Origin: Candidatus Symbiothrix sp.
GTDB lineage: Bacteria; Bacteroidota; Bacteroidia; Bacteroidales; Azobacteroidaceae
Direction of reading: 5' to 3'
DNA: 37,791 bases
Assembly: GCA_031272095.1 (NCBI GenBank)
Contig: JAISUM010000050.1
Location: 1 to 37,791 of the forward strand
The position numbers were made by a program, and so were the translations under genes. The notes beneath the pieces are model-generated. The model had not been told where the DNA came from. It saw only the letters and a program-made list of their open reading frames with translations, and made no database searches. Positions within the stretch are counted from its first letter, which is position 1; each line of letters begins with the position of its first letter. Positions 159 through 36,809 of this stretch are shown here, in pieces.

Positions 159-266
159 TTTTTTATCGGCGGCTTTTTGGTTTGTTCCGGAAAAAATATT
201 CACTTTTTGTAGAAATTGACCTAATATTTGGAACTTTTTATCCGATACCCTAACGATTTTTTCGCT

Positions 267-274
267 TACCTTTG
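267..274 (+). promoter_or_regulatory. Bacteroidota -7 promoter element TACCTTTG
   Basis: TACCTTTG about 40 nt upstream of ATG 315; matches the known TAnnTTTG consensus. Confidence 0.5.
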
Positions 275-314
275 CACCGAAATTCAAAATATAAATTTTA
301 AAATTGAAATATCA

Positions 315-3300: not shown

Positions 3301-3434
3301 TCACCGGTGTCCGCATCTCAACCCCTCTCCCTGTCGGAGAAGGACAAGGGGTGAGGATCAATGTCTCCCACCTGCCTTCCGGCATATATTTTATAAAAAT
3401 CGGCGCTTGGACAGGCAAATTCATTAAACACTAA
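315..3434 (+). CDS. Secreted alginate-lyase-like (alpha/alpha-barrel) protein with a beta-trefoil-like region and a T9SS C-terminal sorting domain
   Basis: ORF 228..3434; ATG at 315 gives a signal peptide (MKKPLLFFLLTTAVAMCCFRLEAQ). N-terminal region (FVHPGGLVSQDDIERIQYLR...ALMWRITG...ANEGAHYMSNWG) resembles alginate lyase family proteins. C-terminus AIYPNPVKDNLVI...GIYFIKIG is T9SS-type. Confidence 0.75.
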   Translation: MKKPLLFFLLTTAVAMCCFRLEAQNFVHPGGLVSQDDIERIQYLREVEKDATIVAAYNKLQANSHAKSTYSPNPQVRVDRGGDEFSDNYTIAMNDAAAAFQNALMWRITGITAHADCAVRILNGWAKTCTNITGDTNASLASGIYGYEFAQAGELLRGYSGWADADFKAYQNWMRDLWYLRALYFLDFRHGRTCATNEGAHYMSNWGLCNALAVMSIGILCDDVDMYNRGLHYYKDDICGNFTDEYRNPIRATGNNEFLGNLVNWLHLDARGPYGYLGQMQESGRDQSHAMMAAGLAADVCQTAWNQGDDLYSFMNNRIAAGFEYIALVNSLASETIVADSVPFQPYSRVGLAAEGYEMTANGLTGWGASRPYWDKIVAHYGYYKGVNMTYSRKMKTKVGVDGGGGDYGSNSGGYDHLGFSTIINYIPQTWYPAANMVPVVVTPHIIYNGITINDNRKSGVTAGSSITLSPTLPEGVTGGTWKWDSGETTRELTFNVQNSGIHRVVYTATNGRTTKQAFNISVWGDCIPDKIHPSISVGDVTYEDSVVTVLPYQAFTLKIRNFVWGETRFASSIKWSTGTSNNSLSCTVSGGVRSDSTLWCEYTNLGGAVTRVNYHLKIVYVTPSHAIDGGSDVSGSQIPLEAGQSVELKPVTVTGYNGGAFHWNTGHHSQNLLLLNVQKGAKYTTCYTLTKNGVTTVDTLEFTVGVKKNVYQLANGDYYIRRASDGAYLTNPNATASEKIKPLFVAEHNTADSLSQIWTISKETASDAGGRFKIVSKKNGNYINENCEFGTNPYYSAWNTYTFYAVEGADLYAIRNGGSSGTMYWTISGDQIVGKGASAQDGYPFLIQSVNGSYPLTPPDEGENIISYIAPAYSVNGGKSQRGSTISLEAGKSLILKPYKVSGLSGGSWLWSDNSTAATLDLGTVNSSGVYTVTFTYPEADSTYVFPLTFTVSVPSDLPAVEQGKIAIYPNPVKDNLVIAGLTRNPLQNVQIYDITGVRISTPLPVGEGQGVRINVSHLPSGIYFIKIGAWTGKFIKH
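3252..3280 (+). repeat. Palindrome family A, in-frame copy (ATTGCGGG-CTTGA-CCCGCAAT-CCCCTGCA)
   Basis: 8-bp perfect arms, loop CTTGA, flank CCCCTGCA; encodes IAGLTRNPLQ inside the T9SS domain. Loop and flank shared with the intergenic copy at 30101-30130. Confidence 0.85.
3318..3358 (+). repeat. Palindrome family B, in-frame copy (encodes STPLPVGEGQGVR)
   Basis: TCAACCCCTCTCCCTGTCGGAGAAGGACAAGGGGTGAGGA; similar to copies at 6875-6921, 6933-6975 and 16419-16459. Confidence 0.85.
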
Positions 3435-3465
3435 ACATTAAGCACTAAACAATAAACACTAATTA
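3424..3465 (+). repeat. Degenerate heptamer array (TTAAACA CTAAACA TTAAGCA CTAAACA ATAAACA CTAATTA)
   Basis: Six period-7 units; the TAA stop of the upstream CDS (3432-3434) lies inside. Confidence 0.7.
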
Positions 3466-3477
3466 AATATTATCAAA

Positions 3478-6400
3478 ATGAGCACAACAATTCAAAAATT
3501 CGGTTTTTTATGTCTGTTTTTAGTAGCAGGCATATCGGCGTGGGCGCAACAAACATTGCCCACCAGCGGCGAGTACTATGTAATCAAAAATTACGCGAGC
3601 AGTACTTACATCGGAGGTTCAGGGTCAGGCAACGATGCGGTCAAAAACGAAGCATCCGGCACTAATGACATCTACCATGTATTTTCGGTAACCGGTAATA
3701 ATACCGATGGTTGGACATTGAAACAGCCATACACCGGTAATGAAATCAGGTACAACAACCAATGGACTATGTCTTACAAGACGTCAGGCGATAATGTCTT
3801 GTGGATTCTGGTAGATCAAACCGATTATTTTGTTATCAATCGGAAAGGTCAGTCCAACGGTATCGGCGGCGACAATGTGGCATCGGGAAACACTTTGTAT
3901 TCCAACAAAACGGAAACGGCAACCCTCCCCAATAAATGGCTGTTCGATGCCAATGAAGCCCGCAGTATTTGTCTTACCCATCTTCAAGCTGTGATTGATG
4001 ATGCGCAAAGCTTTCACGATGCTAATTCCACAGTGGCAGGCGCGAGCGATTTGCAAACAGCCATCAATACGGCAAACGCTGTGGTCAGTAACGGCACGAC
4101 ACAAGATCTCTTGGATGCAATAGCCCCGCTGCAAACAGCAAAACAAGCTTTTGTAAGTGCTATTGCGCTTGCCAACGCCATCGCTAATGCTTCGTTTGAT
4201 AATCCGGTAGATCTGACCGTCGTGATTACCAATCCCGCTTTCGACAACAATACCAAAGACGGTTGGACAGGGACAGGTACGGCAAACTACCACGAAATAG
4301 AAAATTATCAGGTGAATTTTGATTTCTATCAGGTGTTGAGCGGATTGCCCGCCGGAAAATACGAGCTGAAAGTGCAGGGTTTTCAACGTCCCACAGGCAA
4401 TTCGGCAGATCAGGTCATCGCCGCTGATAACGGTACGGATGTAAAAGTGGCAAAATTGTATGCCACCGGCGCTACGGAAATCAATCTTTTGCTGTCGTCT
4501 GTTTATTCCGAAAAAGAATGTACGGCAGGTTGGGAAAATGCAGGTATTAAATATCCCAACTCAATGGCGGATGCCGAAACGGCTTTCAATGCCGGCAAAT
4601 ATGAAAACACCTTGAGCAATATTGTTGTAACGTCGGCAGGCACGCTGACTATCGGCGTGAAAAGTACTTACACCTCAGGCGTATCCGGTCAATGGATCCT
4701 GTTCGATAATTTCCGTCTGACCTATTACGGTGAGGTTTATGCGGTTACTTTTGAGGTTGATGGCGGCAGCGAAGTATCGACGCAACTCTTGTCAAAAACC
4801 GGCGACGGACTCGTTACCGAGCCTGCTGCTCCGAACAAAACAGGTTATACTTTCGACGGCTGGTATGCCGATGCAGGTTTGAATACACTTTTCAACTTTG
4901 CAACTGCCATTTCGGGCGATGTAACTATCTATGCTAAATGGCATGATAATACTCCCGATGCCATTGCCACACTGATAGCCGCTTATACTCCGGCGAAAGC
5001 TTTTTATGACGGCATTGATGAAAGCGACGTAATGGCGTCAGGTGATCCGGATGAGGCAGGCAAATATTCATACACGAATTATACGGCGCTCGGCAATGCG
5101 TTGACCGCCGCCGCAAACATATTGAACGATTGGGACGAATCGACTTCCACTTACAGCGGATCCGTCTCGGTCATCGATATCCTTGCCGCCGCTGCAGCCA
5201 TAGCGCCTGCACAAGCTGCTTGTACCGTGTATGTGGCTTTGAATACGATCCCCGATGGCGAATATTACATCAAAGTCGGCAACTATTATTTCAACAATTT
5301 CGGCACTATAAATCAAGTCCTTTCAACCGCCAACAACGGGTTGCAAACGACAAAAAACATTACCGACGGACATCAAATATTTACCGTAGCCAAACTGTCG
5401 GGAACAGACCATACTACCGTGCTGACAACCGGAAGATACTCAATATTCAATGTCTTTAACAGCGCCTATCATATAACGGAAGAGGCTGTATTCAGAGATA
5501 CTTGGGGGACTCCGGCAAATGCAGGCGACGACCTTTGGCGCACCTTCAATATCTATTACAATGGTACGGCTTATGCCATTCAACGCAAAGCAGGCAACAG
5601 CGACAACGTAATGTGCTATTGGACTTTTGACGGTGCTGTACTGAAACCGGCGACTGCAACAAGCGCTTCGTATATATTTGACTTCATCCCCGTTGCCACC
5701 GTCTTTGCCGAAGAAATTGCCGCAGGTCGCGCATTGTACAACACCGCAACCGAAGGCAATGGCGACGGACAATATGCAGCAGCTGTGTTGTCGGCTTTCG
5801 ACGCCGCCCTTGACGTTGCCGAAGCCATCAGCGTCGGCACAAAAGAAGATTTGTTCGTATATGCCGCCGCTCTTGCCGAGTTTATACCGAACAAAGTATA
5901 TAGTGCAGACGAAACGCTGACTGCATCCGCTCGCTACTACAATGTTACCGTCAATGCAGGTGTAACGCTCACCGTCCCCACCGGCGTCAGCCTCACTGCG
6001 GACAACACGCTCACGCTCAAAAGCAATGATGCCGACGGTACGGCGCAAATCGTAACCGACGGATCCGTCGTTGCCAACGGCGCCGTTGTGGACAAAACGG
6101 TTTCGTACAGCGCCAACAGCTGGTATCCGATAGGTTTTCCGTTTGAATTGAACGGCGTCTATGCTTTTTCCGAATATCTGACGGCACACAAAGAGACAGC
6201 CGGCGTGAGTGGTGATTACTGGCTGAAAACCTACACATCGGGCGCAGAAACCGTATCGCAGTGGGCAGATACCATTGAAGCAAACACAGGCTATGTTGTC
6301 GCTTTCCCAACGGCGTTCAATAATACCGAAGTCAGCTTTATCTCTGCCTCCGGCGTCAATATCAGCAATGCCGGGTTCGCACCGTCAGGCACGGCAGCAT

Positions 6401-6795
6401 ACGCTTTGATCGCCAATCCGACTTTGCAAAATATCACTTTGGCAGACGGCGGCAACTACTATTATTACACTTATGTGGCTGCCTCCAATCGTTTCCTGCG
6501 CATCGCTTACGAAGGCGACGCCACGCTGCAACCCTTCGAGTCGTTCATTGTCGCCTACACCACTGATCCGAGCAGTTTGCGAAGCTCGTTCTCGGTAGAA
6601 GAAGCGACAGATATTCCATATCTGCGAGATATGGAATATCTTGACGATCCTATCGTGAAAACGGAATATTATAATCTGCAAGGTATTAGATATTCCATTT
6701 CTCAAAGAAATGGAATATCTAACGGAACTCCCTACATCGTGAAAGAGGTACGCCAATCGGGGAGAGTAACTTCTAAAGTGATTAGTGGTAAGTGA
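3478..6795 (+). CDS. Large secreted protein with InlB B-repeat (Listeria-Bacteroides repeat) and beta-trefoil-like regions; C-terminal sorting-like domain
   Basis: Signal peptide MSTTIQKFGFLCLFLVAGISAWAQ; motif VTFEVDGGSEVSTQ...PAAPNKTGYTFDGWYADAGLNTLFNF...VTIYAKW; C-terminus EYYNLQGIRY...PYIVKEVRQSGRVTSKVI. Confidence 0.75.
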   Translation: MSTTIQKFGFLCLFLVAGISAWAQQTLPTSGEYYVIKNYASSTYIGGSGSGNDAVKNEASGTNDIYHVFSVTGNNTDGWTLKQPYTGNEIRYNNQWTMSYKTSGDNVLWILVDQTDYFVINRKGQSNGIGGDNVASGNTLYSNKTETATLPNKWLFDANEARSICLTHLQAVIDDAQSFHDANSTVAGASDLQTAINTANAVVSNGTTQDLLDAIAPLQTAKQAFVSAIALANAIANASFDNPVDLTVVITNPAFDNNTKDGWTGTGTANYHEIENYQVNFDFYQVLSGLPAGKYELKVQGFQRPTGNSADQVIAADNGTDVKVAKLYATGATEINLLLSSVYSEKECTAGWENAGIKYPNSMADAETAFNAGKYENTLSNIVVTSAGTLTIGVKSTYTSGVSGQWILFDNFRLTYYGEVYAVTFEVDGGSEVSTQLLSKTGDGLVTEPAAPNKTGYTFDGWYADAGLNTLFNFATAISGDVTIYAKWHDNTPDAIATLIAAYTPAKAFYDGIDESDVMASGDPDEAGKYSYTNYTALGNALTAAANILNDWDESTSTYSGSVSVIDILAAAAAIAPAQAACTVYVALNTIPDGEYYIKVGNYYFNNFGTINQVLSTANNGLQTTKNITDGHQIFTVAKLSGTDHTTVLTTGRYSIFNVFNSAYHITEEAVFRDTWGTPANAGDDLWRTFNIYYNGTAYAIQRKAGNSDNVMCYWTFDGAVLKPATATSASYIFDFIPVATVFAEEIAAGRALYNTATEGNGDGQYAAAVLSAFDAALDVAEAISVGTKEDLFVYAAALAEFIPNKVYSADETLTASARYYNVTVNAGVTLTVPTGVSLTADNTLTLKSNDADGTAQIVTDGSVVANGAVVDKTVSYSANSWYPIGFPFELNGVYAFSEYLTAHKETAGVSGDYWLKTYTSGAETVSQWADTIEANTGYVVAFPTAFNNTEVSFISASGVNISNAGFAPSGTAAYALIANPTLQNITLADGGNYYYYTYVAASNRFLRIAYEGDATLQPFESFIVAYTTDPSSLRSSFSVEEATDIPYLRDMEYLDDPIVKTEYYNLQGIRYSISQRNGISNGTPYIVKEVRQSGRVTSKVISGK
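6609..6641 (+). repeat. Palindrome family D copy 1, in frame (15-bp arms, 3-nt loop)
   Basis: AGATATTCCATATCT-GCG-AGATATGGAATATCT; 33 nt. Confidence 0.9.
6686..6722 (+). repeat. Palindrome family D copy 2, in frame (17-bp arms, 3-nt loop)
   Basis: TTAGATATTCCATTTCT-CAA-AGAAATGGAATATCTAA; translated in a different phase from copy 1. Confidence 0.9.
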
Positions 6796-6802
6796 TTAGT
6801 TA
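6782..6802 (+). repeat. Short heptamer array (TTAGTGG TAAGTGA TTAGTTA)
   Basis: Three period-7 units; stop TGA 6793-6795 lies inside. Confidence 0.6.
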
Positions 6803-6835
6803 CTGATAGCATCACTTCGGAGTGATACTATCAGT
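6802..6835. repeat. Palindrome family C, full copy
   Basis: ACTGATAGCATCACT-TCGG-AGTGATACTATCAGT; 15-bp arms with one mismatch. Confidence 0.85.
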
Positions 6836-6874
6836 GAAAAACAGAGATCTTTAAAAAACAGAAATACTAACAAT

Positions 6875-6921
6875 CCTCACCCCCGACTCCTCTCCAATTT
6901 GGAGAGGGGCAAGGGGTGAGG
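6875..6921. repeat. Palindrome family B, intergenic copy
   Basis: CCTCACCCCCGACTCCTCTCCAATTTGGAGAGGGGCAAGGGGTGAGG. Confidence 0.85.
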
Positions 6922-6932
6922 AAAAACGCACT

Positions 6933-6975
6933 CACTACTCCCCCTCCCTTTGTGGGGAGGGGGTTGGGGGTGAGG
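6933..6975. repeat. Palindrome family B, second adjacent intergenic copy
   Basis: CACTACTCCCCCTCCCTTTGTGGGGAGGGGGTTGGGGGTGAGG. Confidence 0.8.
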
Positions 6976-6981
6976 TCTAAT

Positions 6982-7230
6982 ATGAAAAAGATAATATTAA
7001 TTTTAGCAATTGCCCTTTTGACGGGCGGCGCTCTGACAGCGCAAGCGTATTGGGGACAAACCCAAAGAATGGAAAGACAGTCGCAAGTTTTTAACAAGCG
7101 CTTGTTTAGTAACGAACCGGAAAAAATCGGCGAAAGTGGCGCTTTGCGTGGCGACCGCACCAAAGGTGAAACGGCTCCCACTGATGCAGAAGTGCCTGTG
7201 GGGGGGGGGAGCTTTTGCTCATCGCATTGA
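6982..7230 (+). CDS. Small signal-peptide-bearing protein with a G10 tract near its 3' end; probably frameshifted or phase-variable
   Basis: MKKIILILAIALLTGGALTAQA...EVPVGGGSFCSSH*. In the alternative frame after the G tract the sequence reads GELLLIALSVVYCFKRNNN* (stop 7263-7265), a hydrophobic tail plus basic end. Confidence 0.6.
   Translation: MKKIILILAIALLTGGALTAQAYWGQTQRMERQSQVFNKRLFSNEPEKIGESGALRGDRTKGETAPTDAEVPVGGGSFCSSH
7200..7209 (+). repeat. Homopolymeric G tract (10 G)
   Basis: Ten consecutive G within the small ORF. Confidence 0.95.
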
Positions 7231-7260
7231 GTGTAGTGTATTGCTTTAAACGCAACAACA

Positions 7261-7295
7261 ACTGATAGTATCACCTTCGCAGTGATACTATCAGT
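7261..7295. repeat. Palindrome family C, full copy
   Basis: ACTGATAGTATCAC-CTTCGCA-GTGATACTATCAGT; 14-bp perfect arms. Confidence 0.9.
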
Positions 7296-7306
7296 GAACA
7301 AAAAAA

Positions 7307-8764
7307 ATGAAAAACTTATTAATCATCCTCTGCATTTTCAACCTACAGTTCGCCGCCTACAGTTCGCCGTTCTCGATTTTTGATGCGGAAACGCCTGTGC
7401 GCGAAGTGCAAACCGATATGGGGATTGCCATGCAGCCCGACGAAAAAGTCCGCTGGATGCTCGACGACAAACTCGGTATGTTCATCCACTGGGGCTTGTA
7501 TGCAGGCGTGGCGCAAGGCGAATGGTATATGGAAAACAAAGGCGTTTCTCTCGAAGAATACCGCAAATTGGCATATCCCGAATCGGGCGAGCTGTATTTC
7601 GATGCCCGCGATTTTGACCCCAAAAAATGGGTAGCGCTGGCGCAAAAAATGGGCGCCCGTTATATGAATATGACTGCGCAACACCACGACGGCTATGCGC
7701 TTTTTGAAAGCAAATACATCAACGCTTTCACATCCAAACAGACGCACAACCGCGATTTTGTGCGCGAATATGTTGACGCCGTCCGTGCCGCAGGCTTAAA
7801 AGTCGGACTGTATAAAACGCTGATCAACTGGCGATTTGCCGGTTATTACGATGTTACGGGAACAGATTGCCAGCCCAACAAATTCGGCTACACAACGGCA
7901 GCGTGGCACAAAGAAAATGCGCGTCTGATGAAAGAAGAACTCTTTTGTCAAATCAAAGAGCTGATGAGCAATTACGGACGTATTGACCAGCTTTTTTGGG
8001 ATGGCGGTTGGTTAGCGCAACAAGGCACAGACGCTTCCGGCGCCTATTTCTGGGAGCCGGGGAAATATTTAGACCCCGCCAATCAATGGCAGGTCAATCC
8101 TTATTTTCAGGAATTGGATGACAACGGCAAAGCGCTGGGGTTGATGGGCATTGTGCGAAAATATCAACCCGATATTCTTGCCAACCTGCGCAGTGGATGG
8201 TGCGGCGACTATACTTGCGAAGAAGGCGGGGCGGCAGTCAAAGGCAAAATCCGGCAGGGTGTGGTGGAAAAATGCTTTACCATCACATCCGGCTGGGGCT
8301 ATACCAAAGCGATGGAAGATGAAAGCAGACTGATGTCCCTGCGCGAAATCAAACGGATTTTTGCCGACTGTATTGTGCGTAATATGTGCTGCCTGATCAA
8401 TGTCGGACCGGATCGACACGGCAACATCCCGCAGCCGATAGAAAAGCGTTTGAGCGAATTTGGCGAGTGGGTACATGCGGCAAGTGAAGCAATTTACGGC
8501 ACACGGGCGCTCTGGCAACCTGTTGATAATCAATACGGTTTCTGCTACAAAGACAATGTGATCTACATTTATTTTCTCGGCGGCTACACCGACCGCGAAT
8601 TTACCTTACCGACGCTCAATAAAGGCATCAAAGCTCGACAAGCCTATAACGTCCTCACAAAAGCGAAAGTCGAATTTGCGCAAAAAGGACAGACCATCAC
8701 ACTGAAAAACATCCACCCCATTCAAAACGACATCACTATCATCGCACTAATCACTAACCACTAA
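7307..8764 (+). CDS. Alpha-L-fucosidase, GH29 family
   Basis: KLGMFIHWGLYAGVAQGEWYMEN, KKWVALAQKMGARYMNMTAQHHDGYALFES, GRIDQLFWDGGW; signal peptide at N-terminus. Confidence 0.88.
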   Translation: MKNLLIILCIFNLQFAAYSSPFSIFDAETPVREVQTDMGIAMQPDEKVRWMLDDKLGMFIHWGLYAGVAQGEWYMENKGVSLEEYRKLAYPESGELYFDARDFDPKKWVALAQKMGARYMNMTAQHHDGYALFESKYINAFTSKQTHNRDFVREYVDAVRAAGLKVGLYKTLINWRFAGYYDVTGTDCQPNKFGYTTAAWHKENARLMKEELFCQIKELMSNYGRIDQLFWDGGWLAQQGTDASGAYFWEPGKYLDPANQWQVNPYFQELDDNGKALGLMGIVRKYQPDILANLRSGWCGDYTCEEGGAAVKGKIRQGVVEKCFTITSGWGYTKAMEDESRLMSLREIKRIFADCIVRNMCCLINVGPDRHGNIPQPIEKRLSEFGEWVHAASEAIYGTRALWQPVDNQYGFCYKDNVIYIYFLGGYTDREFTLPTLNKGIKARQAYNVLTKAKVEFAQKGQTITLKNIHPIQNDITIIALITNH

Positions 8765-21144: not shown

Positions 21145-22545
21145 TTATTGAATGATAATTTTTCTTGATTGATTGTTGATAAAAATGATATATACGCCGG
21201 CATTGGGGAGCGTGAAAGTTTCCCAATGACCGTTGCTTGGTCGGTCAAGTAAATATTGTCCCTGCACATTTGCGATACGCACGCGGTCGCCTGCGGCATA
21301 AGTGCGATAGGCAATGTCGCGTCCGTTGGTGTAGAGGTCGGCGTAGCTGCTTCCGACGGGAACGATGGCGTCAGCCGACGAACAGACGCCTTTCAGCGGG
21401 ACGGCAACGCTGCCCGAAATTCCGCCATCGGACAGGACTAATAAGGCGCTATGTTCGCCGTAGTCTTTGGGGTTATAACTGATTTTCAGGCTGTAACCCG
21501 ATTCCGCATTGACCGATGCTGCGGATACGGAAGTTACATTCGTCGAGAAATAACCCGATGCGTTGGAAAAGAGCGTGATTGACAAATTGCCGGTCAGCCC
21601 AACGCCTTTCAGCGCTACGGTGCGTTCCACTTCCGCATCTTTGCGGATATCGCCGAAATAGATTTCCGTAGAATTAGCCGTAGGGGTAATCAGGGCTGGT
21701 CCTACCGGTATCAAATTTTCGGGCAGGGCAAAGGGGTAGTCGATCGAATCTCCCCAGATATATTCCACCAACTGCGGAAAATCAATGAAGGGATTGCGAT
21801 TTTGCTGGTAGCCCCAGACGGCATTGTTGCGGTCGATTTCTTTTTGACTGACCGCATCCTGACGGTGCCATTGGAGCAACATTGCCTGCGCCCATGGTTT
21901 CAACACCGGATAGGTCTCTTTGTTGAACATATTCAGGGCGTCGCTACGCCAATAATCGGCATAATCTTCGTAGCACGTTATCATATAAAAATAAGTGCGG
22001 GCAAAATCGCCTTTGTATTCGTCGGCAGGTTCAAAGGCTTTGGCGGTAGAAACCGCCTGAAAATTGTAGGCATTGGCGCCGATTTTGGAAACGCCGTTGT
22101 CGAAGGTCGGCGATGCCACTTCGCCCAGCATATAGTTCGATTTTGCAATATTGGCGGCGCCGTCGGAGGGGTAGAGGTGATTCAAATCGCTGTAAGCGTC
22201 ATATTTACTGACTTCGGACGAGACTGCCCACCAGCTTTTCGGCAATGAATGTTCTTTGTTCATATCGGAGGTGCTGCCGTAAGGGTTGCTGTTAAAATAG
22301 CGCACTGTATTGGAATACATATCCCAGACGGTTCGTCCGTCGGCATGCACGTCGGTCGTATGAAAATAATACCACAAATCGTTGTAACTCAACACACTGT
22401 GATTTTTCAATATCAGGTGCAAGGCGGTTTTGATGGCGCGTTGCTGTTTGCCGTCTATCGTGCTGTAATAGCCTTCCGGTATTTGTGCCGACAAGAGTGC
22501 AGGCAGCAGAAGAAACGCGATGATCAGATGAAATATACTTTTCAT
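21145..22545 (-). CDS. Secreted endonuclease I (EndA/Bsn-type) family nuclease, paralog 1, with C-terminal sorting-like domain
   Basis: DLWYYFHTTDV...VWDMYSN...NKEHSLPKSWW...DLNHLYPSDGAANIAKSNYMLGEV; signal peptide; C-terminus GVYIIFINNQSRKIIIQ. Confidence 0.85.
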   Translation of the reverse strand: MKSIFHLIIAFLLLPALLSAQIPEGYYSTIDGKQQRAIKTALHLILKNHSVLSYNDLWYYFHTTDVHADGRTVWDMYSNTVRYFNSNPYGSTSDMNKEHSLPKSWWAVSSEVSKYDAYSDLNHLYPSDGAANIAKSNYMLGEVASPTFDNGVSKIGANAYNFQAVSTAKAFEPADEYKGDFARTYFYMITCYEDYADYWRSDALNMFNKETYPVLKPWAQAMLLQWHRQDAVSQKEIDRNNAVWGYQQNRNPFIDFPQLVEYIWGDSIDYPFALPENLIPVGPALITPTANSTEIYFGDIRKDAEVERTVALKGVGLTGNLSITLFSNASGYFSTNVTSVSAASVNAESGYSLKISYNPKDYGEHSALLVLSDGGISGSVAVPLKGVCSSADAIVPVGSSYADLYTNGRDIAYRTYAAGDRVRIANVQGQYLLDRPSNGHWETFTLPNAGVYIIFINNQSRKIIIQ

Positions 22546-22555
22546 AGTCAGTAGA

Positions 22556-23662
22556 TTAACGGTTAAACAGTCGGGTGGTTTTCGACCTGCCTTGTCGGTC
22601 GATAAGTTGTATCACATAGACAGCTTGTGGCAAGGCACTCGTTTGATAGGGCGCTGCCGACAGCTCGGCTTGCCACACCGTTTGTCCCTGCATATTGTAG
22701 ATGCGCAACAAAGCCGGTGCGTAGAGATTTTTCACTTGCAGGCAAGCGTTTTCAAAACAGGCAAGCGGCTCAAATACTTCGAGCGTTTCCAAATCGGTTT
22801 CGGAATAGGGGTTGAACGCGAAAGTGATCGAATCGCCCCAGACATATTCTGCCAACTGCGGAAAATCGATATAGGGATTGCGGTTGTGCTGATAATTTGT
22901 ATAAATTTCGTTGTTGCGGTCGATCTCTTTTTGACTGACGGGGTCGGCGGCGTTCCATTGCAGGAGCATTGTGATTGCCCACGACTGAAAGGCGGGATAT
23001 GCCGTGCCGTTGATTGTCGGTTTTGCCTCTGCATTGCCATACCAGCTTGCCACCACATTTTCGTAGCGGGTTACCATATAAAAATAGCTGCGGGCGAAGT
23101 CGCCTTTGTACTCGTCGGCAGGTTCAAAAACGATGCCGGTATAGCCTGCGATGGTGTTTTGTCCCAATTTTGTGCCGGTGCCGTTAAGTTCCGATTGGGT
23201 ATTGTTGGCTACCATGCCGAAGGGATAATTGCTGCGATAGCCGTTCACTTTCCCGTCGGTGGGGTAGAGGTGAAAAAGGTCGGTGTACATGGGATAAGCA
23301 TCGTTGAACCAGCTTTTCGGGAAAGAATGTTCGCGGTTATAGCAGTCGCATACGGCGTTGTAATTGCCGCATTGTTCGCTGACAAACGTGAAGGTGCAAT
23401 TGCTGTACATATCCCAGACTTTCCCGTCGTTGCGGACGTCGGTTGTTTGAAAAGCCGTCCACAAGTCTTTGTAGGTCAATTCGTCGTGGTCTTTGATCAC
23501 GTTATACATCGCTGTTTTCAGGGCTGCCTGTTTTTTCCCGAAGGCGCTGTTGTAGTATCCGGCGGGAATTTGTGCCGACGCAGAAAACAAAAGGAAAAAT
23601 AGGGCGTTGCCGGTGAGCAACGCCTTATTCAAAAGAATTATATAACGTGATTGAGTGTGCAT
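22556..23662 (-). CDS. Secreted endonuclease I family nuclease, paralog 2, with T9SS-like C-terminus
   Basis: DLWTAFQTTDV...VWDMYSN...NREHSFPKSWFN...DLFHLYPTDGKVNGYRSNYPFGMV; C-terminus LRIYNMQGQTVWQAEL...AVYVIQLIDRQGRSKTTRLF. Confidence 0.85.
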   Translation of the reverse strand: MHTQSRYIILLNKALLTGNALFFLLFSASAQIPAGYYNSAFGKKQAALKTAMYNVIKDHDELTYKDLWTAFQTTDVRNDGKVWDMYSNCTFTFVSEQCGNYNAVCDCYNREHSFPKSWFNDAYPMYTDLFHLYPTDGKVNGYRSNYPFGMVANNTQSELNGTGTKLGQNTIAGYTGIVFEPADEYKGDFARSYFYMVTRYENVVASWYGNAEAKPTINGTAYPAFQSWAITMLLQWNAADPVSQKEIDRNNEIYTNYQHNRNPYIDFPQLAEYVWGDSITFAFNPYSETDLETLEVFEPLACFENACLQVKNLYAPALLRIYNMQGQTVWQAELSAAPYQTSALPQAVYVIQLIDRQGRSKTTRLFNR

Positions 23663-23669
23663 TGTCGGC

Positions 23670-25061
23670 TTATTTGTTTAAGACTTTGAATGCTTTGCCA
23701 TCCACTTTGACGATATAAACGCCTTTGTCGGTCAAAGGAATCACTGTCGAAACGGTCTTTTTCAACAACCTGCCGGACAGGTCATACACCGTGATATGGG
23801 CTTTTTCGGCGGCGCCGGAGATGATGATGCTGCCATCGCGGGTGGCAACTGAAATATTCTTTGCGGTAGCTGTCGGCAAAGAGGTAAGCACTAATTCATA
23901 GTCTCTAACATTTTTAACTGCCGGAACTAAATAATATGCTTCCAGAGTGCCTTCAAGTTTGACAAATACACCCAAATTAGCGGGGTTATCAACAAGGTTC
24001 AAAGCTGTACGCACAGTGCCGCTCGGTAATTGAACCGGCATGCATTTAGCTGTATCCGTTTCGGTAGGAGATGCTGCAATTAAGATGTTGGTTGCCGTAT
24101 TGAATGGCGCTTCCAACGAAATAGAATCTTGTTTGCCTACTACGCCGACGATGTAACCTTCCACCCAATAATATTCCGACGTACTTACGCCTTGGTTGGC
24201 AACAACGTCTGCAACATTATAGGGATTTTCTTTTGTACCATTATTCCCGTCGACAGAAATCACTGCGTTTAGCTCAATGGTTTTAGACACTGTTCCGCTG
24301 GCGATGGTCAATGTGGCGGTGGTCGAAGCGGTTCCCGTAAAACTTACAGTTACTTCTTTTGCTCCGTCTGCCTTATCCAATGTAGCGGGAGTAACAGTGA
24401 AAGCTGCATTGTCAGCTGATACCGTAACATCGTCCGTCAAATCGGCAACCGTAAAACCAACTGTCCTCGACAAATGCGTTTCGTTGAAGAAAATGTCTGC
24501 AACCGACGCTAAAGTAATGGTGGGTTGCGCTGCAGCCTGACCCGCCGTGATGACCAAATCATCTAAAAAGAAACGACCTTTGGAGTCTTGTTGTCCTTCA
24601 AATTTGATAGTTGAACCGGTTGTTCCTCCGGTTAAAGAAACCGTAAAATCTTGCATGACATAACTTGCAGTGTTGGGCAAACCGCTTACCAATGCTACCG
24701 AATCTCCATTCAGATAGATTTTCAGGTTAGTTGCATCCCCCGACCAAGCCATTGCTTTAAAAGAAATTGTAAATTGGTCAGGCAAATTGATAGCCGGCGT
24801 CTGAATCCAACCCAAAACGGTTGACGTACCCATTTTGATTGTCTTGCCGGCTGAATACACTTTGGAACCTGTCCAGCCTGAAACTGCCGTATAAGTATCC
24901 AAAGATGTCGATAGATCGGTAGATGCCGCGCCACCACCGGTACTTCCCGCCGTAAATCCTGCAAAATCTTCGCTAAACAAAGTTTGCGCATTTGCACTCC
25001 AACTCATCATCATTGCTGCTGCGGCAATGAATAAACTCTTAACAGTAAAACTTTTTTTCAT
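23670..25061 (-). CDS. Secreted DUF6359-type protein with T9SS C-terminal domain
   Basis: GTKENPYNVADVVANQGVSTSEYYWVEGYIVGVVGKQDS...PVQLPSGTVRTALNLVDNPANLGVFVKLEGTLEAYYLVPAVKNVRDYEL; C-terminus ITVYDLSGRLLKKT...GVYIVKVDGKAFKVLNK. Confidence 0.72.
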   Translation of the reverse strand: MKKSFTVKSLFIAAAAMMMSWSANAQTLFSEDFAGFTAGSTGGGAASTDLSTSLDTYTAVSGWTGSKVYSAGKTIKMGTSTVLGWIQTPAINLPDQFTISFKAMAWSGDATNLKIYLNGDSVALVSGLPNTASYVMQDFTVSLTGGTTGSTIKFEGQQDSKGRFFLDDLVITAGQAAAQPTITLASVADIFFNETHLSRTVGFTVADLTDDVTVSADNAAFTVTPATLDKADGAKEVTVSFTGTASTTATLTIASGTVSKTIELNAVISVDGNNGTKENPYNVADVVANQGVSTSEYYWVEGYIVGVVGKQDSISLEAPFNTATNILIAASPTETDTAKCMPVQLPSGTVRTALNLVDNPANLGVFVKLEGTLEAYYLVPAVKNVRDYELVLTSLPTATAKNISVATRDGSIIISGAAEKAHITVYDLSGRLLKKTVSTVIPLTDKGVYIVKVDGKAFKVLNK

Positions 25062-25095
25062 ATCTCTATAAATTTAAAAATTAGTAATTTCATGT

Positions 25096-27390
25096 TTATG
25101 GTTTTGTTCCGTCAATACGGATGTTATCCAAGCGGATGCCCATAGTATTGGTATTGGATGTTGAGAACTTGATTTGCAAATTGGATGTTGCCGGAATGCC
25201 GGTAATGCCCGATATGGTTTTGAAAGTATTTTTGGCGCCCAAATCGGTTGCCGGAACGGTCAGCGTCGTTTCCGTATTGGTATTCAGGTCTGTAACAACA
25301 ACGCTCATCAAATTGGCGGTTACTCCACTTTCTCCATTGTGCGTCATATCGAACGAGAGCGTCATATTGCTGCATCCGGCTGTGTTGATGCCTGAAATGG
25401 TCAAATATTCGTAATCGGGATATAGTTCCGACCATGCGGCGAACCACAAATGAGAGTTCAAAGAGCCGGTTGAACGGATGTCGGCATTGCCGGAATAGGT
25501 TATCGGTGCGCCGTTGTCCCAGTCGGTATAAGTGTCGGGGGACGGACGTGTGCCAGTGGAGGGACCTGCCTCGCCGCAGGTTTCCAAGAAGATGGCGCCT
25601 GTTTCGGTGCCGCCGCCGCCGCTACCGCCATTGTCGGGGTCGATCACCGGCGTTCCGAGCGGGTCGGAAGTGGTCAGTGTGATGTCATCGACGCGGGTAC
25701 CGTAGGTGGTGGTTGCCGCCGTAAATTTCAGTTTGATGGTGTTGGCGCCTGCGGGCAAAGTGATGTCTATTCCGCTGACCAATTCCCACGAATCTGATGT
25801 TTTCGTATAAGGAATCGATACCCAATCGGATGTACCGTTGATTTTATAGGCTACAGACATGACGGAGCTTGTTTCGTTAGCGCCGAATTGCAGGTGGAGG
25901 GTGGTTGCGCCACAAGTAGCGATGTCGTTGATAATCAGACTTGCGCCGGTGGCTGCCATCATTGCGTTACATCCGCCGGAAGCGTCTTGATAGGAGGATA
26001 CGGCATTACCGCGTATCGAAACCGTGCCGCCTTCGGAGGTGTAAGTTACTTGACCTGCGCCTGCGCCGGTGGTGGTGTAGCCCGTATAGTCAGCGACAGA
26101 GGGCCAAGGAGAGGCGGAGGCTGCGGTGCCGAATGTTTCGCTGTAAAGGACTTCGCCGGTCGAAACTGCGCCTTCCAATTTGAAATTTGAGGCGGCGCCG
26201 TCGGTGGTCAGCCCTGCTGCACCCCATTTGGTTCTCAGTGTGCCATTGACTTGCAGTTTCTTGCCGATATTTTCGGGGTGGTCGCTCAAATTGACGACGG
26301 TGCGAATGTCTGTTCCGGCAGGCAATTCGACGACGACAACTTTTGTCCAGTCGGTGATGTTCGCTTCCTGTGCCAAAACGACCGAATTGTTGAAATAGGG
26401 CGCTGCGAAAGAGATGCCGCTGTTGCCGGTGATCGGAGCTGCATCGCTGACGCCCGGAGCTGCTGCGCCGACGATGTAGCCTTCTATCCAGCCCGACACG
26501 CTACCGTCTTGTTTTTCAAGCGCATATTCGATAGAGTAGGGGCTTGCTTGCGTTCCGCTGCCTGTGTAGGTAAATCGATCGGGACTGCAGTCGGCGTAAG
26601 TGCGGAATAAGATTTGCAGCGTCGAGTTGTAAACTGTCAAGATGCCGGTAACGCTGCCTGTGCCTTTGGGCAGGGTGTTGGCTGCGAAATCGGCTGCACT
26701 GCTGATGCGAGCGGTCAAAGAGCCTGATCCGCTGCTCGGTTTCAATACTTTGTTCAGCGTTTGCGGATTGCCGCCGCCAACCGGTTGTTCGGCATATAAT
26801 TCCGTGCCGCCTTTTTCAAAATATACGTCCTTGACGGTTATCAAAGTGCCGACTAATGGACTGCTGACACTTAATTGGTCGATAGTCAATTCCGGCACGG
26901 TAACTTTTTTGATGTCGATAGCGCCGTCTTTTTGCGCATGGTTCTGATCAAAAGTTTGCAAGCCTACGCGACTGATCGTTCCATTGTTATCGACGCCCAA
27001 CTGCGGCAAGGTGCCGTATTCGCCGTAAGCTAATCCCTGACATTTGACGACAATGTCTTGTCCGATGGGGAGAGAGCCGCTCAAACCGGTTGCGTCGATC
27101 TGGATGTTGATGCCGCCGGTGCTGTCCTGAATCTGGATTTGTTTATAGACATTTCCCGACACATCGTTTGCCGTAATAGTGCCTTTGATGAAAATTTCTT
27201 CGGAAATCGGCGTACATGCCTGTCCTTTATAGGTATCTAATATGGTGCGGATCGGCGTCATCTCGTAGTTTCTCAGCCATTCCGACTGGGGCAATTCCTC
27301 TTTGGGAACTTCCACTTCGCGTTCGTCACATGCCATCAGCAATGGCAGGAAAAATAACACTGTAAAAAGTGATTTTTTGAAAGTCTTCAT
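25096..27390 (-). CDS. Surface lipoprotein with DUF5689-type and DUF6359-type regions plus jelly-roll (choice-of-anchor-like) domains
   Basis: Lipobox FLPLLMACDERE; IFIKGTITANDVSGNVYKQIQIQDSTGGINIQIDATGLSGSLPIGQDIVVKCQGLAYGEYGTLPQLG; WIEGYIVGAAAPG...VVELPAGTDIRTVVNLSDHPENIGKKLQVNGTL. Confidence 0.75.
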   Translation of the reverse strand: MKTFKKSLFTVLFFLPLLMACDEREVEVPKEELPQSEWLRNYEMTPIRTILDTYKGQACTPISEEIFIKGTITANDVSGNVYKQIQIQDSTGGINIQIDATGLSGSLPIGQDIVVKCQGLAYGEYGTLPQLGVDNNGTISRVGLQTFDQNHAQKDGAIDIKKVTVPELTIDQLSVSSPLVGTLITVKDVYFEKGGTELYAEQPVGGGNPQTLNKVLKPSSGSGSLTARISSAADFAANTLPKGTGSVTGILTVYNSTLQILFRTYADCSPDRFTYTGSGTQASPYSIEYALEKQDGSVSGWIEGYIVGAAAPGVSDAAPITGNSGISFAAPYFNNSVVLAQEANITDWTKVVVVELPAGTDIRTVVNLSDHPENIGKKLQVNGTLRTKWGAAGLTTDGAASNFKLEGAVSTGEVLYSETFGTAASASPWPSVADYTGYTTTGAGAGQVTYTSEGGTVSIRGNAVSSYQDASGGCNAMMAATGASLIINDIATCGATTLHLQFGANETSSVMSVAYKINGTSDWVSIPYTKTSDSWELVSGIDITLPAGANTIKLKFTAATTTYGTRVDDITLTTSDPLGTPVIDPDNGGSGGGGTETGAIFLETCGEAGPSTGTRPSPDTYTDWDNGAPITYSGNADIRSTGSLNSHLWFAAWSELYPDYEYLTISGINTAGCSNMTLSFDMTHNGESGVTANLMSVVVTDLNTNTETTLTVPATDLGAKNTFKTISGITGIPATSNLQIKFSTSNTNTMGIRLDNIRIDGTKP

Positions 27391-27414
27391 TTTATTGTTG
27401 TTTTAAGATTGTTT

Positions 27415-29967
27415 TTAGAATTTGAATGCTACCATTGCAAAGACGTTAAATCCTTGCGCGTAATAATATTTGTTCGGAAATTTATTCATGTTTTTGGTCG
27501 AACTCGATGCACCGTAGTCCATACGTCCCTGTTCAAAACCGCCCGTTTTCAATTCCGTATTGTTTAAAATATTATTCAGCTGAAGATTAAAATTCAGTTG
27601 GTATTTACGTTGGATGCGTAATGTTTTTCCGATCGACAGATCGACGGTGAATCCGCCTTTGAATTTTTCCTGCGCCGTAACTCGTCTGAAAGCGGTTTCC
27701 CAGTCTTCCGTTTCGCCGTTATCATATACTAAACGCATGCCCTGAACTGCCGATTGGGTGCGGTGATTGGGCGATGGATCGACATAAGTGCGGTCGTATC
27801 CGTTGATGTTTGCGTCGAAAAACCAGTATTTGTAGAAGGCATGTATGCCGAAAGTTCCGGCAATTTGAGGCGTTGCTCCGACATATACATTTTTCATATA
27901 GGCAGTTTCGCTCTTGTCTTCCTTTAAGCCGTTTTCATACGAAAGGACGGCGGTTGGATTGTTGGTGTAGATGTATTCGGCGACGGTGCCTGCCATCGAC
28001 AGCGAAAAGATGGAGTTGATTTTGACGTCCAAACCTGCTTCGACGCCCTGATTGGTTTTATTTACGCCCGAAAGGGTATAATTCAGCAGGGTGTTCGCGG
28101 CATTGTCGTAATAGACGGTTTTTTCCATCTGATCGTAGAAATTGGTATAGAAGGCGGCAAGTTTTCCGCGCACGATGGGGGTAGAAAACATATAAGCAAT
28201 ATCTGCCGACAATACTTTTTCCGACGAAAGCCCTTTGATTGCGTCGTCTTTGATGCGTTCCGACACATAAGCGTTGCTTGTCAGCGGCGGCAGGTAAGCA
28301 TAAGACAGATTGGCGACTAAGAGGTGCGAGCCGGTAAATTTATAAATCAGACCTGCTTTTGCCGAGCGATTGAAGAAGGAATGGGTAGCGCCTTTGCCGT
28401 AAGAGTTTTCGGGCGAGCGTCCGTTTCTCATATTGCCGTAACGATAAAATTCCGAATAGCCCAATTTGAGTCCGTAATAGACGTCGATTTTATTGTAGCG
28501 ATGCGTATTTTGGATCCAAGCGTTTGCTGCATTGATATGAATATCGTAATCGTAGCCGAAACGGTCGCCTTTGCGGACTTGTCGGTTGGGATGGTTCAAA
28601 TCGTTCTGTGCAAAATCGCCCGGATTGCTAACGATGCTGGGGTTGCTGTCTTCGTCGCGTTGCGCAAAGGGATCGGTATCTAAAAAGTATTCGCCGCCCA
28701 AGAGGTCGCTGATGGTTTTATAGTGCATACCTTTGGTGGTGCTGGCGTCAATCCCGGCGACTAATTCTATCTGATCTATCTGTTTGTTCAGCACCGACGA
28801 GAGCGAGATGACTTGCTGGTCGTTGTGGCGTTCTTCGACGATGTAATCCGATTCGCCGCCGAGATAGCGGTTGGCTTCGTACATTTTATCCCAATTGACT
28901 TGCGTTACCGACTGTACATTGCTTTGCCACAGATCGGTATAGACGGCTTTGTCATATTCCGAGGTTTTGTAGCTGGGCAATTCGCGGTAATAATCGGGAC
29001 GCGGGTCGTATGCGTCTTTGCGATTCAGCGCCGTGCCGCCGTACATCGTATATTTGTAGCCGAGTGCGGTGGTCAGTTTGGTTTCGCGGTCAATTTGAAA
29101 TTTGTGTTGCAAAATGGAGGTTGGCTCATAGACGGTGATGATGCGCGAATTGCGTTTCTTGCCGTTTTGCCATCCCCAATAGGAGTTATAATAATTATTG
29201 TCTAACAGATCCATTGTTTCCTGTACATTGGGCGACGATTGGGCGCGTTGTGTGGGCGATCCGAGCGTGGTGAGCGACAGGCTGTGTTGGTGGTTCAGCA
29301 CTTTTTCGATGGCGAGCATATAGCCCAGACTGTTGTAGAATGTTCCTTCGATATAGCCTTCGTCTGCCCAACGATAGCCTGCGGAGGCAGCGATTGCCCA
29401 GCCGTTGTCCATCAATCCGGTAGCGTAGGTTGCCATTGCGCGGGTTTTGTAATTGCGGTTGGTGTATGCCAAACTGACTTTTCCTCCGGGTGCATACGAC
29501 GAGGCAGTGGTGTTGATATTGCTGTAGCCGCCGATTTGTCCGAAAGCGAAAGTCGATGGCGTGAACCAGTTGATATTGTCCTTGTTGCGCATGGCGTCGT
29601 TCAAACCGCCGATCAGTCCGTAACTGAATCCGCCACGTTCGGGATCGTTGAGGTTGATACCGTCAATATATACTTCGGAATAACGATTTTCGTAGCCGCG
29701 CAATTTAAAGCGGACAGCCGAAAAGTTATAGGCTGTGTTGTTGATATACACATCGTTGGATGGAATCAGCATTGCCGAGATATTGAAGTCGCCTGCTTCG
29801 GAGTCGTCGCCCAGCGCCTCTTCTTCGATGACGACCAAATTGCCTTCGTCAATCAGTTTGCGGATGTCTTGAACTAAAGTATCTTCATCCATTGCACCTT
29901 GCGCCCAAGAGAAGGCGGCGACACAGGCAAATAGTGCTGTAAAAAACATTTTTTTTGTTGCTGTCAT
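27415..29967 (-). CDS. TonB-dependent outer-membrane receptor
   Basis: Plug-like AVRFKLRGYENRYSEVYIDGINLNDPERG; long beta-strand-rich barrel ending FNVFAMVAFKF (C-terminal aromatic); signal peptide. Confidence 0.85.
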   Translation of the reverse strand: MTATKKMFFTALFACVAAFSWAQGAMDEDTLVQDIRKLIDEGNLVVIEEEALGDDSEAGDFNISAMLIPSNDVYINNTAYNFSAVRFKLRGYENRYSEVYIDGINLNDPERGGFSYGLIGGLNDAMRNKDNINWFTPSTFAFGQIGGYSNINTTASSYAPGGKVSLAYTNRNYKTRAMATYATGLMDNGWAIAASAGYRWADEGYIEGTFYNSLGYMLAIEKVLNHQHSLSLTTLGSPTQRAQSSPNVQETMDLLDNNYYNSYWGWQNGKKRNSRIITVYEPTSILQHKFQIDRETKLTTALGYKYTMYGGTALNRKDAYDPRPDYYRELPSYKTSEYDKAVYTDLWQSNVQSVTQVNWDKMYEANRYLGGESDYIVEERHNDQQVISLSSVLNKQIDQIELVAGIDASTTKGMHYKTISDLLGGEYFLDTDPFAQRDEDSNPSIVSNPGDFAQNDLNHPNRQVRKGDRFGYDYDIHINAANAWIQNTHRYNKIDVYYGLKLGYSEFYRYGNMRNGRSPENSYGKGATHSFFNRSAKAGLIYKFTGSHLLVANLSYAYLPPLTSNAYVSERIKDDAIKGLSSEKVLSADIAYMFSTPIVRGKLAAFYTNFYDQMEKTVYYDNAANTLLNYTLSGVNKTNQGVEAGLDVKINSIFSLSMAGTVAEYIYTNNPTAVLSYENGLKEDKSETAYMKNVYVGATPQIAGTFGIHAFYKYWFFDANINGYDRTYVDPSPNHRTQSAVQGMRLVYDNGETEDWETAFRRVTAQEKFKGGFTVDLSIGKTLRIQRKYQLNFNLQLNNILNNTELKTGGFEQGRMDYGASSSTKNMNKFPNKYYYAQGFNVFAMVAFKF

Positions 29968-29990
29968 ATACTTGATTTAAAATGAACGCC

Positions 29991-29998
29991 CAAAAGTA
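29991..29998 (-). promoter_or_regulatory. Bacteroidota -7 element TACTTTTG (minus strand)
   Basis: CAAAAGTA on plus strand, 24 nt upstream of the TonB receptor start. Confidence 0.5.
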
Positions 29999-30100
29999 CA
30001 AAAATATCTTGAAATATCCGCTATCTTTTACGGTCTTTTTGGCAAAAAAGTTTTCAACAATGAAATTTTGCCTTTTGAGACGCCTCGTCAGTTTAACGAT

Positions 30101-30138
30101 TTGCAGGGGATCCCGCGTCAAGCGCGGGATAACGCGAA
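30101..30138. repeat. Palindrome family A, intergenic copy
   Basis: TTGCAGGGG-ATCCCGCG-TCAAG-CGCGGGAT-AACGCGAA; reverse complement shares CTTGA loop and CCCCTGCAA flank with 3252-3280. Confidence 0.88.
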
Positions 30139-30140
30139 CA

Positions 30141-30182
30141 TTAACCACTAATCACTAATCACTAACCACTAACCACTAACCA
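30141..30182 (+). repeat. Heptamer array, 6 units (TTAACCA CTAATCA CTAATCA CTAACCA x3)
   Basis: Period-7 repeats between divergent genes, next to palindrome family A. Confidence 0.85.
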
Positions 30183-30201
30183 CTATTTCACTATTTTTTC
30201 G

Positions 30202-30209
30202 TACCTTTG
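30202..30209 (+). promoter_or_regulatory. Bacteroidota -7 element TACCTTTG
   Basis: 20 nt upstream of ATG 30229. Confidence 0.55.
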
Positions 30210-30228
30210 TCGGCATATTTTTAATATT

Positions 30229-35040: not shown

Positions 35041-35150
35041 AGCAATAATTATGAAATAACAGTTCGGATGTTGTTTTTTATGCAAAAAAATTGCCACCTT
35101 TGCAAGCTGAAAAAATAACCTTACCTTTTTGCAAATCAAAATTTAATTTG

Positions 35151-35158
35151 TACTTTTG
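35151..35158 (+). promoter_or_regulatory. Bacteroidota -7 element TACTTTTG, with TTTTTG about 19 nt upstream
   Basis: TTTTTG at 35126-35131 and TACTTTTG at 35151-35158; ATG at 35187. Confidence 0.6.
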
Positions 35159-35186
35159 TAGCGATATTTCAAATCCGTCAAAAATT

Positions 35187-36809
35187 ATGGCAACGTTACG
35201 CAAAAAACTGCCGATTGGCATACAAACTTTTGAGACAATTATCAGCGAAAATTATGTTTACGTTGATAAAACGCGGTATTTGGTCGAAATGATTGATACA
35301 GGCAAAATTTATTTCCTGTCCCGTCCGCGTCGTTTCGGCAAATCGTTGACTGTATCGACCTTTGATGCAATGTTTTCCGGCAAAAAAGAACTGTTCAAGG
35401 GACTGTATGCCGAAGAGTTTATGAATCGGGCGGATTATTACAGTTCGCCGGTTATTCGTCTGGATATGAGCCAGGTAACAACATATTCCAACTTTGAAAG
35501 ATTCGAGGCGTCGATAAATCTCATGCTTGAAAGTATTGCAAAAAAATATGACATTGAGATTAATAACAGTTTTTCGCCGGATGTTATTTTCAACAAATTA
35601 ATTCAGGATATTGCCCAAAAACACGGTAAAGTTGTGATTTTGCTCGACGAATACGATAAACCCTACGTCGATTTCTTCACTCAACCCGAAAAAGCAGAGC
35701 AGATTAGAGGTTTTTTGCGAAACTTCTATGTCCAAATAAAAGCAAACGACGAATATATCCGCTTTGTGTTTATCACCGGAATTTCAAAATTTGCCCGTTT
35801 CGGCGTGTTTTCGGGCTTAAATTCGCCTGAAGATATTTCACTGACAAAACGATATGGCAAAATGCTGGGATATTCCGAAGAAGAAATCGTTAAATATTTT
35901 TCGGAAGAATTAAAAGATACTGCTGAAGAATTGGGAATTTCCGTTGACGCACTGCTTGACAGAATGCGTTATTATTACGACGGATTCTGTTTCGACGGCA
36001 TTCATAAACTTTACAATCCGTTTTCTACTATCAACTTTTTCAAAGCAAAAAGTTTCGACAATTTTTGGATGGAATCAGGCACTACCAAATTGATTACGGA
36101 TTATCTGAAAACGCATAAATTAAGTGTAGAGCAGTTTCATAATATTCAGGTTTCGCGCGATTTTGCTCGAAGTCCGGGCGATATGGATTCGACGCCGCCC
36201 GAAGGTTTTCTTTATCAAGGCGGATATTTGACCATCAGCCGCGCCGAAGGCGAGTTTTTAGCGCTTGATTATCCTAATACAGAGGTGCTTAACTCGATGT
36301 CGCGCTTGGTGTCGGAAATTGTTTGCAAACGTAACGACGATGATTTTGCGCATTATCGCAGCGATTTGTTGGCAGCACTTTCTTCCAAAAATAAAGAGAA
36401 ACTTTCAAAAGTATTTAATTGCCTTTTGGCAAGTATTCCGTACGATGATTTCAGGCGTGGCGCCGAACGAAATATCTCTGATAATATTTATGACTTTCCT
36501 TTGCACGAATGGCACTATCGTTCGATGATTCTGGCTTTTGTGCGCGGTTGCGGAGTGGCTGCTGTTGCCGAAATGCACACCAATCTGGGGCGTGCCGACT
36601 TGGTGCTGGACTATCTGGGAAATGTTTGGGTAATAGAAATTAAAGTAGCATACAAACCGGAAGACGTACCTGCAAAACTTGCCGAAGCAAAAGCGCAAAT
36701 TATAGACGGCAATTACACAGCGCCTTATCCCAATTCTACCGCAATCGCAATGGTGATTGACGATACCAAACGGGAATTTACGGAAAGCGAAATAGTGGTT
36801 AGTAGTTAG
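35187..36809 (+). CDS. AAA-ATPase-like / PD-(D/E)XK nuclease-like protein
   Basis: LPIGIQTFETIISENYVYVDKTRYLVEMIDTGKIYFLSRPRRFGKSLTVSTFDAMFSGKKELFKGLY; VILLDEYDKPYVDFF; C-terminal GRADLVLDYLGNVWVIEIKVAY (nuclease core). Confidence 0.88.
   Translation: MATLRKKLPIGIQTFETIISENYVYVDKTRYLVEMIDTGKIYFLSRPRRFGKSLTVSTFDAMFSGKKELFKGLYAEEFMNRADYYSSPVIRLDMSQVTTYSNFERFEASINLMLESIAKKYDIEINNSFSPDVIFNKLIQDIAQKHGKVVILLDEYDKPYVDFFTQPEKAEQIRGFLRNFYVQIKANDEYIRFVFITGISKFARFGVFSGLNSPEDISLTKRYGKMLGYSEEEIVKYFSEELKDTAEELGISVDALLDRMRYYYDGFCFDGIHKLYNPFSTINFFKAKSFDNFWMESGTTKLITDYLKTHKLSVEQFHNIQVSRDFARSPGDMDSTPPEGFLYQGGYLTISRAEGEFLALDYPNTEVLNSMSRLVSEIVCKRNDDDFAHYRSDLLAALSSKNKEKLSKVFNCLLASIPYDDFRRGAERNISDNIYDFPLHEWHYRSMILAFVRGCGVAAVAEMHTNLGRADLVLDYLGNVWVIEIKVAYKPEDVPAKLAEAKAQIIDGNYTAPYPNSTAIAMVIDDTKREFTESEIVVSS

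Follow-up and report, generated by a model that had tools for sequence, protein, structure and literature searches.

A TonB-dependent receptor, DUF5689 lipoprotein and nuclease locus of Candidatus Symbiothrix as a candidate DNA importer for natural transformation

A locus in Candidatus Symbiothrix sp., a gut Bacteroidales bacterium akin to the termite-associated 'Candidatus Azobacteroides', suggests how bacteria lacking DNA-uptake pili, such as Bacteroidota, might bring DNA across their outer membrane. The window analyzed here is one whole contig of 37,791 nucleotides (JAISUM010000050.1, assembly GCA_031272095.1), in which five minus-strand genes fill positions 21145–29967 in the order receptor, lipoprotein, DUF6359 protein, Endonuclease I (EndoI) A and EndoI B, with intergenic gaps of 24, 34, 7 and 10 bp. 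An earlier note, made from the sequence alone, had described five co-directional genes with gaps of 7 to 34 bp; its coordinates and order were exact, though the run continues into dnaE, which comes 12 bp after EndoI B, so the left border of the five-gene run is arbitrary. The note had also proposed that a TonB receptor serves to capture nucleic acids from outside the cell, an idea that our analysis supports, and the sole experimental evidence in the receptor's clade, lost natural transformation (PMC8459023), adds a possibility that it did not raise. We consider it probable that the locus encodes an outer-membrane, TonB-driven DNA importer feeding natural transformation, of the type on which the duck bacterium Riemerella anatipestifer depends.

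Relationship to a transformation locus of Riemerella anatipestifer

In R. anatipestifer, markerless deletion of either RA0C_RS04915, an outer-membrane, TonB-receptor-like protein, or RA0C_RS04920, which carries DUF5689 and DUF5017, brings transformation below detection, and pilus homologs were reported absent from this species (PMC8459023). Normal transformation also requires tonBA and tonBB, whose mutants show a decrease, and not tbfA (PMC8383284). We recognized the corresponding locus in a Riemerella genome (G481) by gene order fitting the published locus-tag numbering, RA0C_RS04870 to RS04920: recA-dinB-sdhBAC-comEC-145 aa-542 aa-Exo_endo_phos_3 nuclease-receptor-DUF5689, with recA, comEC, the nuclease and DUF5689 confirmed by Pfam and dinB and sdh assigned by reading their sequences. 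Numbering upward in fives from RS04870 (RecA) puts comEC at RS04895, the receptor at RS04915 and the DUF5689 protein at RS04920, matching the publication. A tree of 86 receptors puts those of the window and of Riemerella together in a clade of 57 (clade A, support 100) and leaves 29 sister receptors outside; within clade A, the window receptor groups with Bacteroidales and Riemerella occupies a separate subclade, the split that would be expected from descent. The window and Riemerella (L147) receptors share 30% identity over 845 aa, and the closest named receptor, at 53% identity, is from 'Candidatus Azobacteroides sp.' (L169).

The receptor (27415–29967, minus strand, 850 aa) has zero matches to Pfam or NCBIfam models, including any SusC or other receptor model. 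Its structure, predicted from 53 homologs (pLDDT 87, pTM 0.86), gave PqqU, Fiu, FecA and FhuA:TonB as top matches, with E down to 1e-27, so that the model confirms the class given in the earlier note, a TonB-dependent barrel with a plug fold. A hydrophobic run ahead of the plug, LVVIEEE, is TonB-box-like by sequence.

The lipoprotein (25096–27390, minus strand, 764 aa) is the counterpart of RA0C_RS04920, and its lipidation-type cysteine, C21, is invariant across 57 homologs. It carries DUF5689 at aa 45–267 (26590–27258; 173.6 bits, Pfam cut-off 28.6) and DUF6359 at aa 285–396 (26203–26538; 68.8 bits, cut-off 23.2; pLDDT about 97), and the predicted structure is confident over both domains (pLDDT mostly >90). 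Foldseek matched the model to the HIN-200 domains of IFI16, p204 and p205 (E 3e-5 to 5e-4), tandem OB folds that bind DNA, one of the matched structures having been solved with single-stranded DNA; TM-scores against these targets were modest (0.34–0.40), and the output came without aligned residues. The earlier guess of an OB fold in DUF5689 is thus supported by the model, which does not by itself prove DNA binding. Foldseek also returned jelly-roll carbohydrate-binding and reelin folds, fitting the jelly-roll-like C-terminal part of the protein, and a sequence search with the lipoprotein and the third protein against solved structures gave nothing useful. The Riemerella DUF5689 partner belongs to NCBIfam family M949_1556 (NF052645, named for an R. 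anatipestifer protein), scoring 599 bits in the Riemerella genome against a cut-off of 475, and of the 150 genomes in Riemerella's family, 145 contain a match; the window lipoprotein reaches 70.9 bits, making it a homolog that is not filed in this subfamily. Some Weeksellaceae lipoproteins (L101, L103 and L105) are about 700 aa long with two M949_1556-type DUF5689 regions.

The remaining three genes encode secreted proteins on the same strand. The third protein (23670–25061, 463 aa) carries a second DUF6359 domain (113.7 bits) and a sorting-like C-terminal domain (DUF6383, weak Por_Secre_tail), and its N-terminus matches an R. anatipestifer type IX secretion system (T9SS) DNase family (NF052644, AS87_RS02955) at 92 bits, below the cut-off of 260. 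EndoI A (22556–23662, 368 aa) and EndoI B (21145–22545, 466 aa, with a choice-of-anchor-D/ASH-like part and a sorting-like C-terminus) score 260.8 and 162.1 bits with Endonuclease_1 (cut-off 25), so the DUF5689, DUF6359 and EndoI assignments of the earlier note all stand above Pfam cut-offs. Motifs NREHSFPKSW and DLFHLYPTDGKVNGYRSN are intact in EndoI A, as is KEHSLPKSW in EndoI B; because each protein keeps the His motif (REHSFPKSW and KEHSLPKSW, respectively) plus the following Asn region, both are probably catalytically active. T9SS sorting-domain matches are present on the last three proteins at 22.4, 22.6 and 18.5 bits, just under the cut-off of 23, and T9SS SprA is encoded in the genome.

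A conserved core across Bacteroidota and the later competence genes

Across 393 Bacteroidota genomes, we found the clade-A receptor in 67, including two in which it is split (G147 and G262, Flavobacteriaceae-type, by two frames or a gap). In a first locus set, DUF5689 was adjacent in 47 of 53 clade-A loci and Exo_endo_phos_3 in 42 of 53, versus 0 of 30 sister-receptor loci for either, counts that are not independent in descent and that rest on search models seeded from clade-A loci. Among 80 further loci, DUF5689 was near the receptor in 73, an Exo_endo_phos_3 nuclease in 47, DUF6359 in 41 and EndoI in 6. The conserved core therefore consists of the receptor and the DUF5689 lipoprotein, joined in most cases by a secreted Exo_endo_phos_3 nuclease/phosphatase, and is not a random set. 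The five genes that the earlier note had treated as one locus are not conserved as a set: only 9 of 133 clade-A receptors have EndoI nearby, and both the EndoI genes and those for DUF6359 proteins are add-ons. Partners of the EndoI type recur at four loci (L169, L170, L209 and L218); L209 and L218 have a pair directly after the core, and in L169 the pair lies nearby. The Exo_endo_phos_3 gene is absent beside the window receptor; that of the same genome lies at another contig's end (G000:C69:40060-41001) and scores 558 bits to the core model.

The receptor keeps its DUF5689 and nuclease partners over more than six families, and the module occurs in Flavobacteriia and many Bacteroidales (Dysgonomonas, Paraprevotella, Alloprevotella and 'Candidatus Azobacteroides'), including 12 of 12 genomes searched from the genus of Porphyromonas bennonis. 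In Riemerella's genus, comEC lies within about 8 kb of the module in three of six loci; we rejected proximity to competence genes as a conserved trait, as it is confined to the Riemerella lineage, with nothing consistent elsewhere. Likewise, a first guess that 613-aa and 340-aa Weeksellaceae neighbors were ComEC and RecA was rejected, the sequences reading as Rho and a phosphotransferase. One Riemerella-type genome has a Cas9-like ORF, called by eye from its N-terminal sequence, next to its receptor locus (L150:17211-19901). Among the sister receptors (clade B), those at L037 and L041 come after an S1/P1 nuclease gene, and the L041 lipoprotein carries DUF5017; clade B possibly holds a second nucleic-acid receptor family, and such partners suggest that nucleic acids may be what the wider family handles.

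The genome containing the window (2.31 Mb in 141 contigs, 87% complete) encodes ComEC and DprA, a protein anchored in the membrane that has two helix-hairpin-helix repeats of ComEA type, and a ComF-like protein, the ComF and ComEA models matching below their NCBIfam cut-offs; RecA is assumed. Two near-complete genomes from the same genus are 1.0–1.2 Mb, in line with reduced symbionts of termite protists, an identification that we infer. Two reduced relatives, G003 and G023, have neither the receptor nor DprA, and the ComEA-like protein, SprA and the Exo_endo_phos_3 nuclease are missing from them too, which fits loss of the whole pathway but also plain genome reduction. In the 1.2-Mb G003, only a broken comEC remnant with three stop codons remains.

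A proposed DNA import route and its rivals

Under the reading we favor, the surface lipoprotein, with its OB-like DUF5689 and its DUF6359, would bind DNA from outside the cell, above the receptor; the EndoI pair, perhaps together with the DUF6359 protein, would cut surface DNA into engageable ends or pieces; the receptor would move DNA to the periplasm on TonB energy; and the ComEA-like protein, ComEC, the ComF-like protein, DprA and RecA would take one strand to the chromosome. We infer that DNA passes via the receptor, that the steps run in this order and that the nucleases help rather than hinder. The Riemerella pair itself has been known since 2021; the reach into Bacteroidales, the nuclease association, the OB-fold evidence and the nuclease-rich variant are new.

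Several points weigh against this route. The R. anatipestifer work did not demonstrate DNA crossing RS04915, its authors offering as self-declared speculation that RS04920 binds DNA and RS04915 lets it cross (PMC8459023), and Flavobacterium johnsoniae carries the genes, yet could not be transformed under the conditions that were tried. At 30% identity to RA0C_RS04915, function may have shifted. ComEC presence says little, as it was found in 67 of 67 clade-A genomes and in 314 of the 326 others (381 of 393 in the phylum sample), and we dropped its co-occurrence as a test of function because it is near-universal. One 99% complete Bacteroidales genome (G026; L030 and L038) has the full core and no ComEC match, so that either the module exists without a classical ComEC channel or ComEC was missed. 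The related nuclease Dns of Vibrio cholerae lowers transformation, and extracellular nucleases could equally serve to feed on DNA. Surface nucleases can aid transformation or destroy DNA, and our data do not decide between these roles.

Feeding is the main rival: the nucleases would break down DNA or RNA outside the cell, and the receptor would import oligonucleotides, nucleotides or another product for phosphate, nitrogen or carbon, with Riemerella transformation as a side use of the same importer. The two or three neighboring genes for secreted proteins of nuclease type, the Exo_endo_phos_3 enzymes as the receptor's usual partner, the S1/P1 nuclease beside some sister receptors and the G026 core are all consistent with such scavenging. 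The only relatives that have been tested are, however, essential for transformation (PMC8459023), and the window genes scanned included none for a nucleoside or phosphate transporter or kinase. On this balance we regard scavenging in place of transformation as rather unlikely, though the two may coexist, one DNA importer feeding both.

Less likely still, the EndoI genes would have a separate defense or biofilm-dispersal function beside a DNA importer and would lower uptake, a view that concerns only the add-ons and is compatible with DNA import by the core. Their scarcity near clade-A receptors speaks for it, whereas the EndoI pairs of L169, L209 and L218, distant loci where they come after or near the core, speak against it, as do entry nucleases known elsewhere, such as Moraxella NucM, a nuclease of the betabetaalpha metal class that is needed for competence (PMC6384898). 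It is very improbable that the receptor has an unrelated substrate, such as a metal complex or small nutrient, with the nucleases as chance neighbors and the Riemerella defect indirect: a different substrate is conceivable at 30% identity and the effect of TonB on transformation is partly via iron, but the partners are retained across families, the DUF5689 model resembles a DNA-binding fold, and the transformation frequency of the tonBA mutant drops without an iron defect (PMC8383284).

If transformation is what the locus serves, a TonB receptor would import a long polymer, whereas this class is usually credited with small ligands and oligosaccharides. More tentatively, and with our confidence just short of even, we suggest that the DNA-uptake pilus may be replaced throughout Bacteroidota by a TonB-dependent receptor working with an OB-fold lipoprotein and surface nucleases to import a DNA-length polymer, and that this apparatus is nuclease-armed in a gut symbiont lineage. 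Bacteroidota dominate animal guts and exchange resistance genes, and the survey connects the sole genetically proven pair to a recognizable receptor-lipoprotein-nuclease module that can be tested in cultured species.

Surroundings of the locus and comparison with known systems

The region upstream of the receptor (29968–30228, minus strand) holds two TAnnTTTG elements, 39 and 31 bp ahead of the receptor start. TAnnTTTG is the Bacteroidota -7 consensus; no matching -33 element was seen in this region, and a scan for sigma-70 promoters and terminators gave matches at chance level. A 7-bp repeat (TAACCAC on the plus strand, 6.3 copies) lies at 30142–30185, between the receptor and a divergent thioesterase gene. 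Elsewhere in the window, 35091–36809 holds a gene for an AAA-ATPase_like plus PDDEXK_9 nuclease, a family often present in multiple copies in gut Bacteroidales, and 228–8764 encodes a List-Bact repeat protein, an alpha-L-fucosidase and a protein of alginate-lyase type whose T9SS sorting domain is clear.

Like SusC/SusD loci, the window locus places a surface-type lipoprotein and secreted hydrolases after a TonB receptor; unlike them, it has DUF5689 in place of SusD, and its hydrolases are nucleases. The earlier analogy with polysaccharide utilization loci thus holds for architecture and fails for content, there being no SusD family and no glycan enzymes, and we rejected a SusCD glycan locus on the DUF5689 and DUF6359 domains of the lipoprotein and its lack of any SusD family match in Pfam. 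The EndoI proteins share the Endonuclease_1 domain and intact motifs with Vibrio Vvn and E. coli EndA but are longer, have sorting-like C-termini and are linked to a receptor. Compared with the R. anatipestifer pair, the receptor belongs to the common clade, the DUF5689 lipoprotein is adjacent and later competence genes are in the genome. The differences are a receptor without the N-terminal CarboxypepD_reg domain and of low identity (30%), a lipoprotein that also has DUF6359 and falls under the NF052645 cut-off, two added EndoI genes and a DUF6359 protein, and an Exo_endo_phos_3 gene on another contig. The type IV pilus or type IV secretion-like uptake systems of Neisseria, Vibrio and Helicobacter have the same proposed task before ComEC, which the window locus would perform with a receptor, a lipoprotein and TonB in place of a filament or secretion-type machine.

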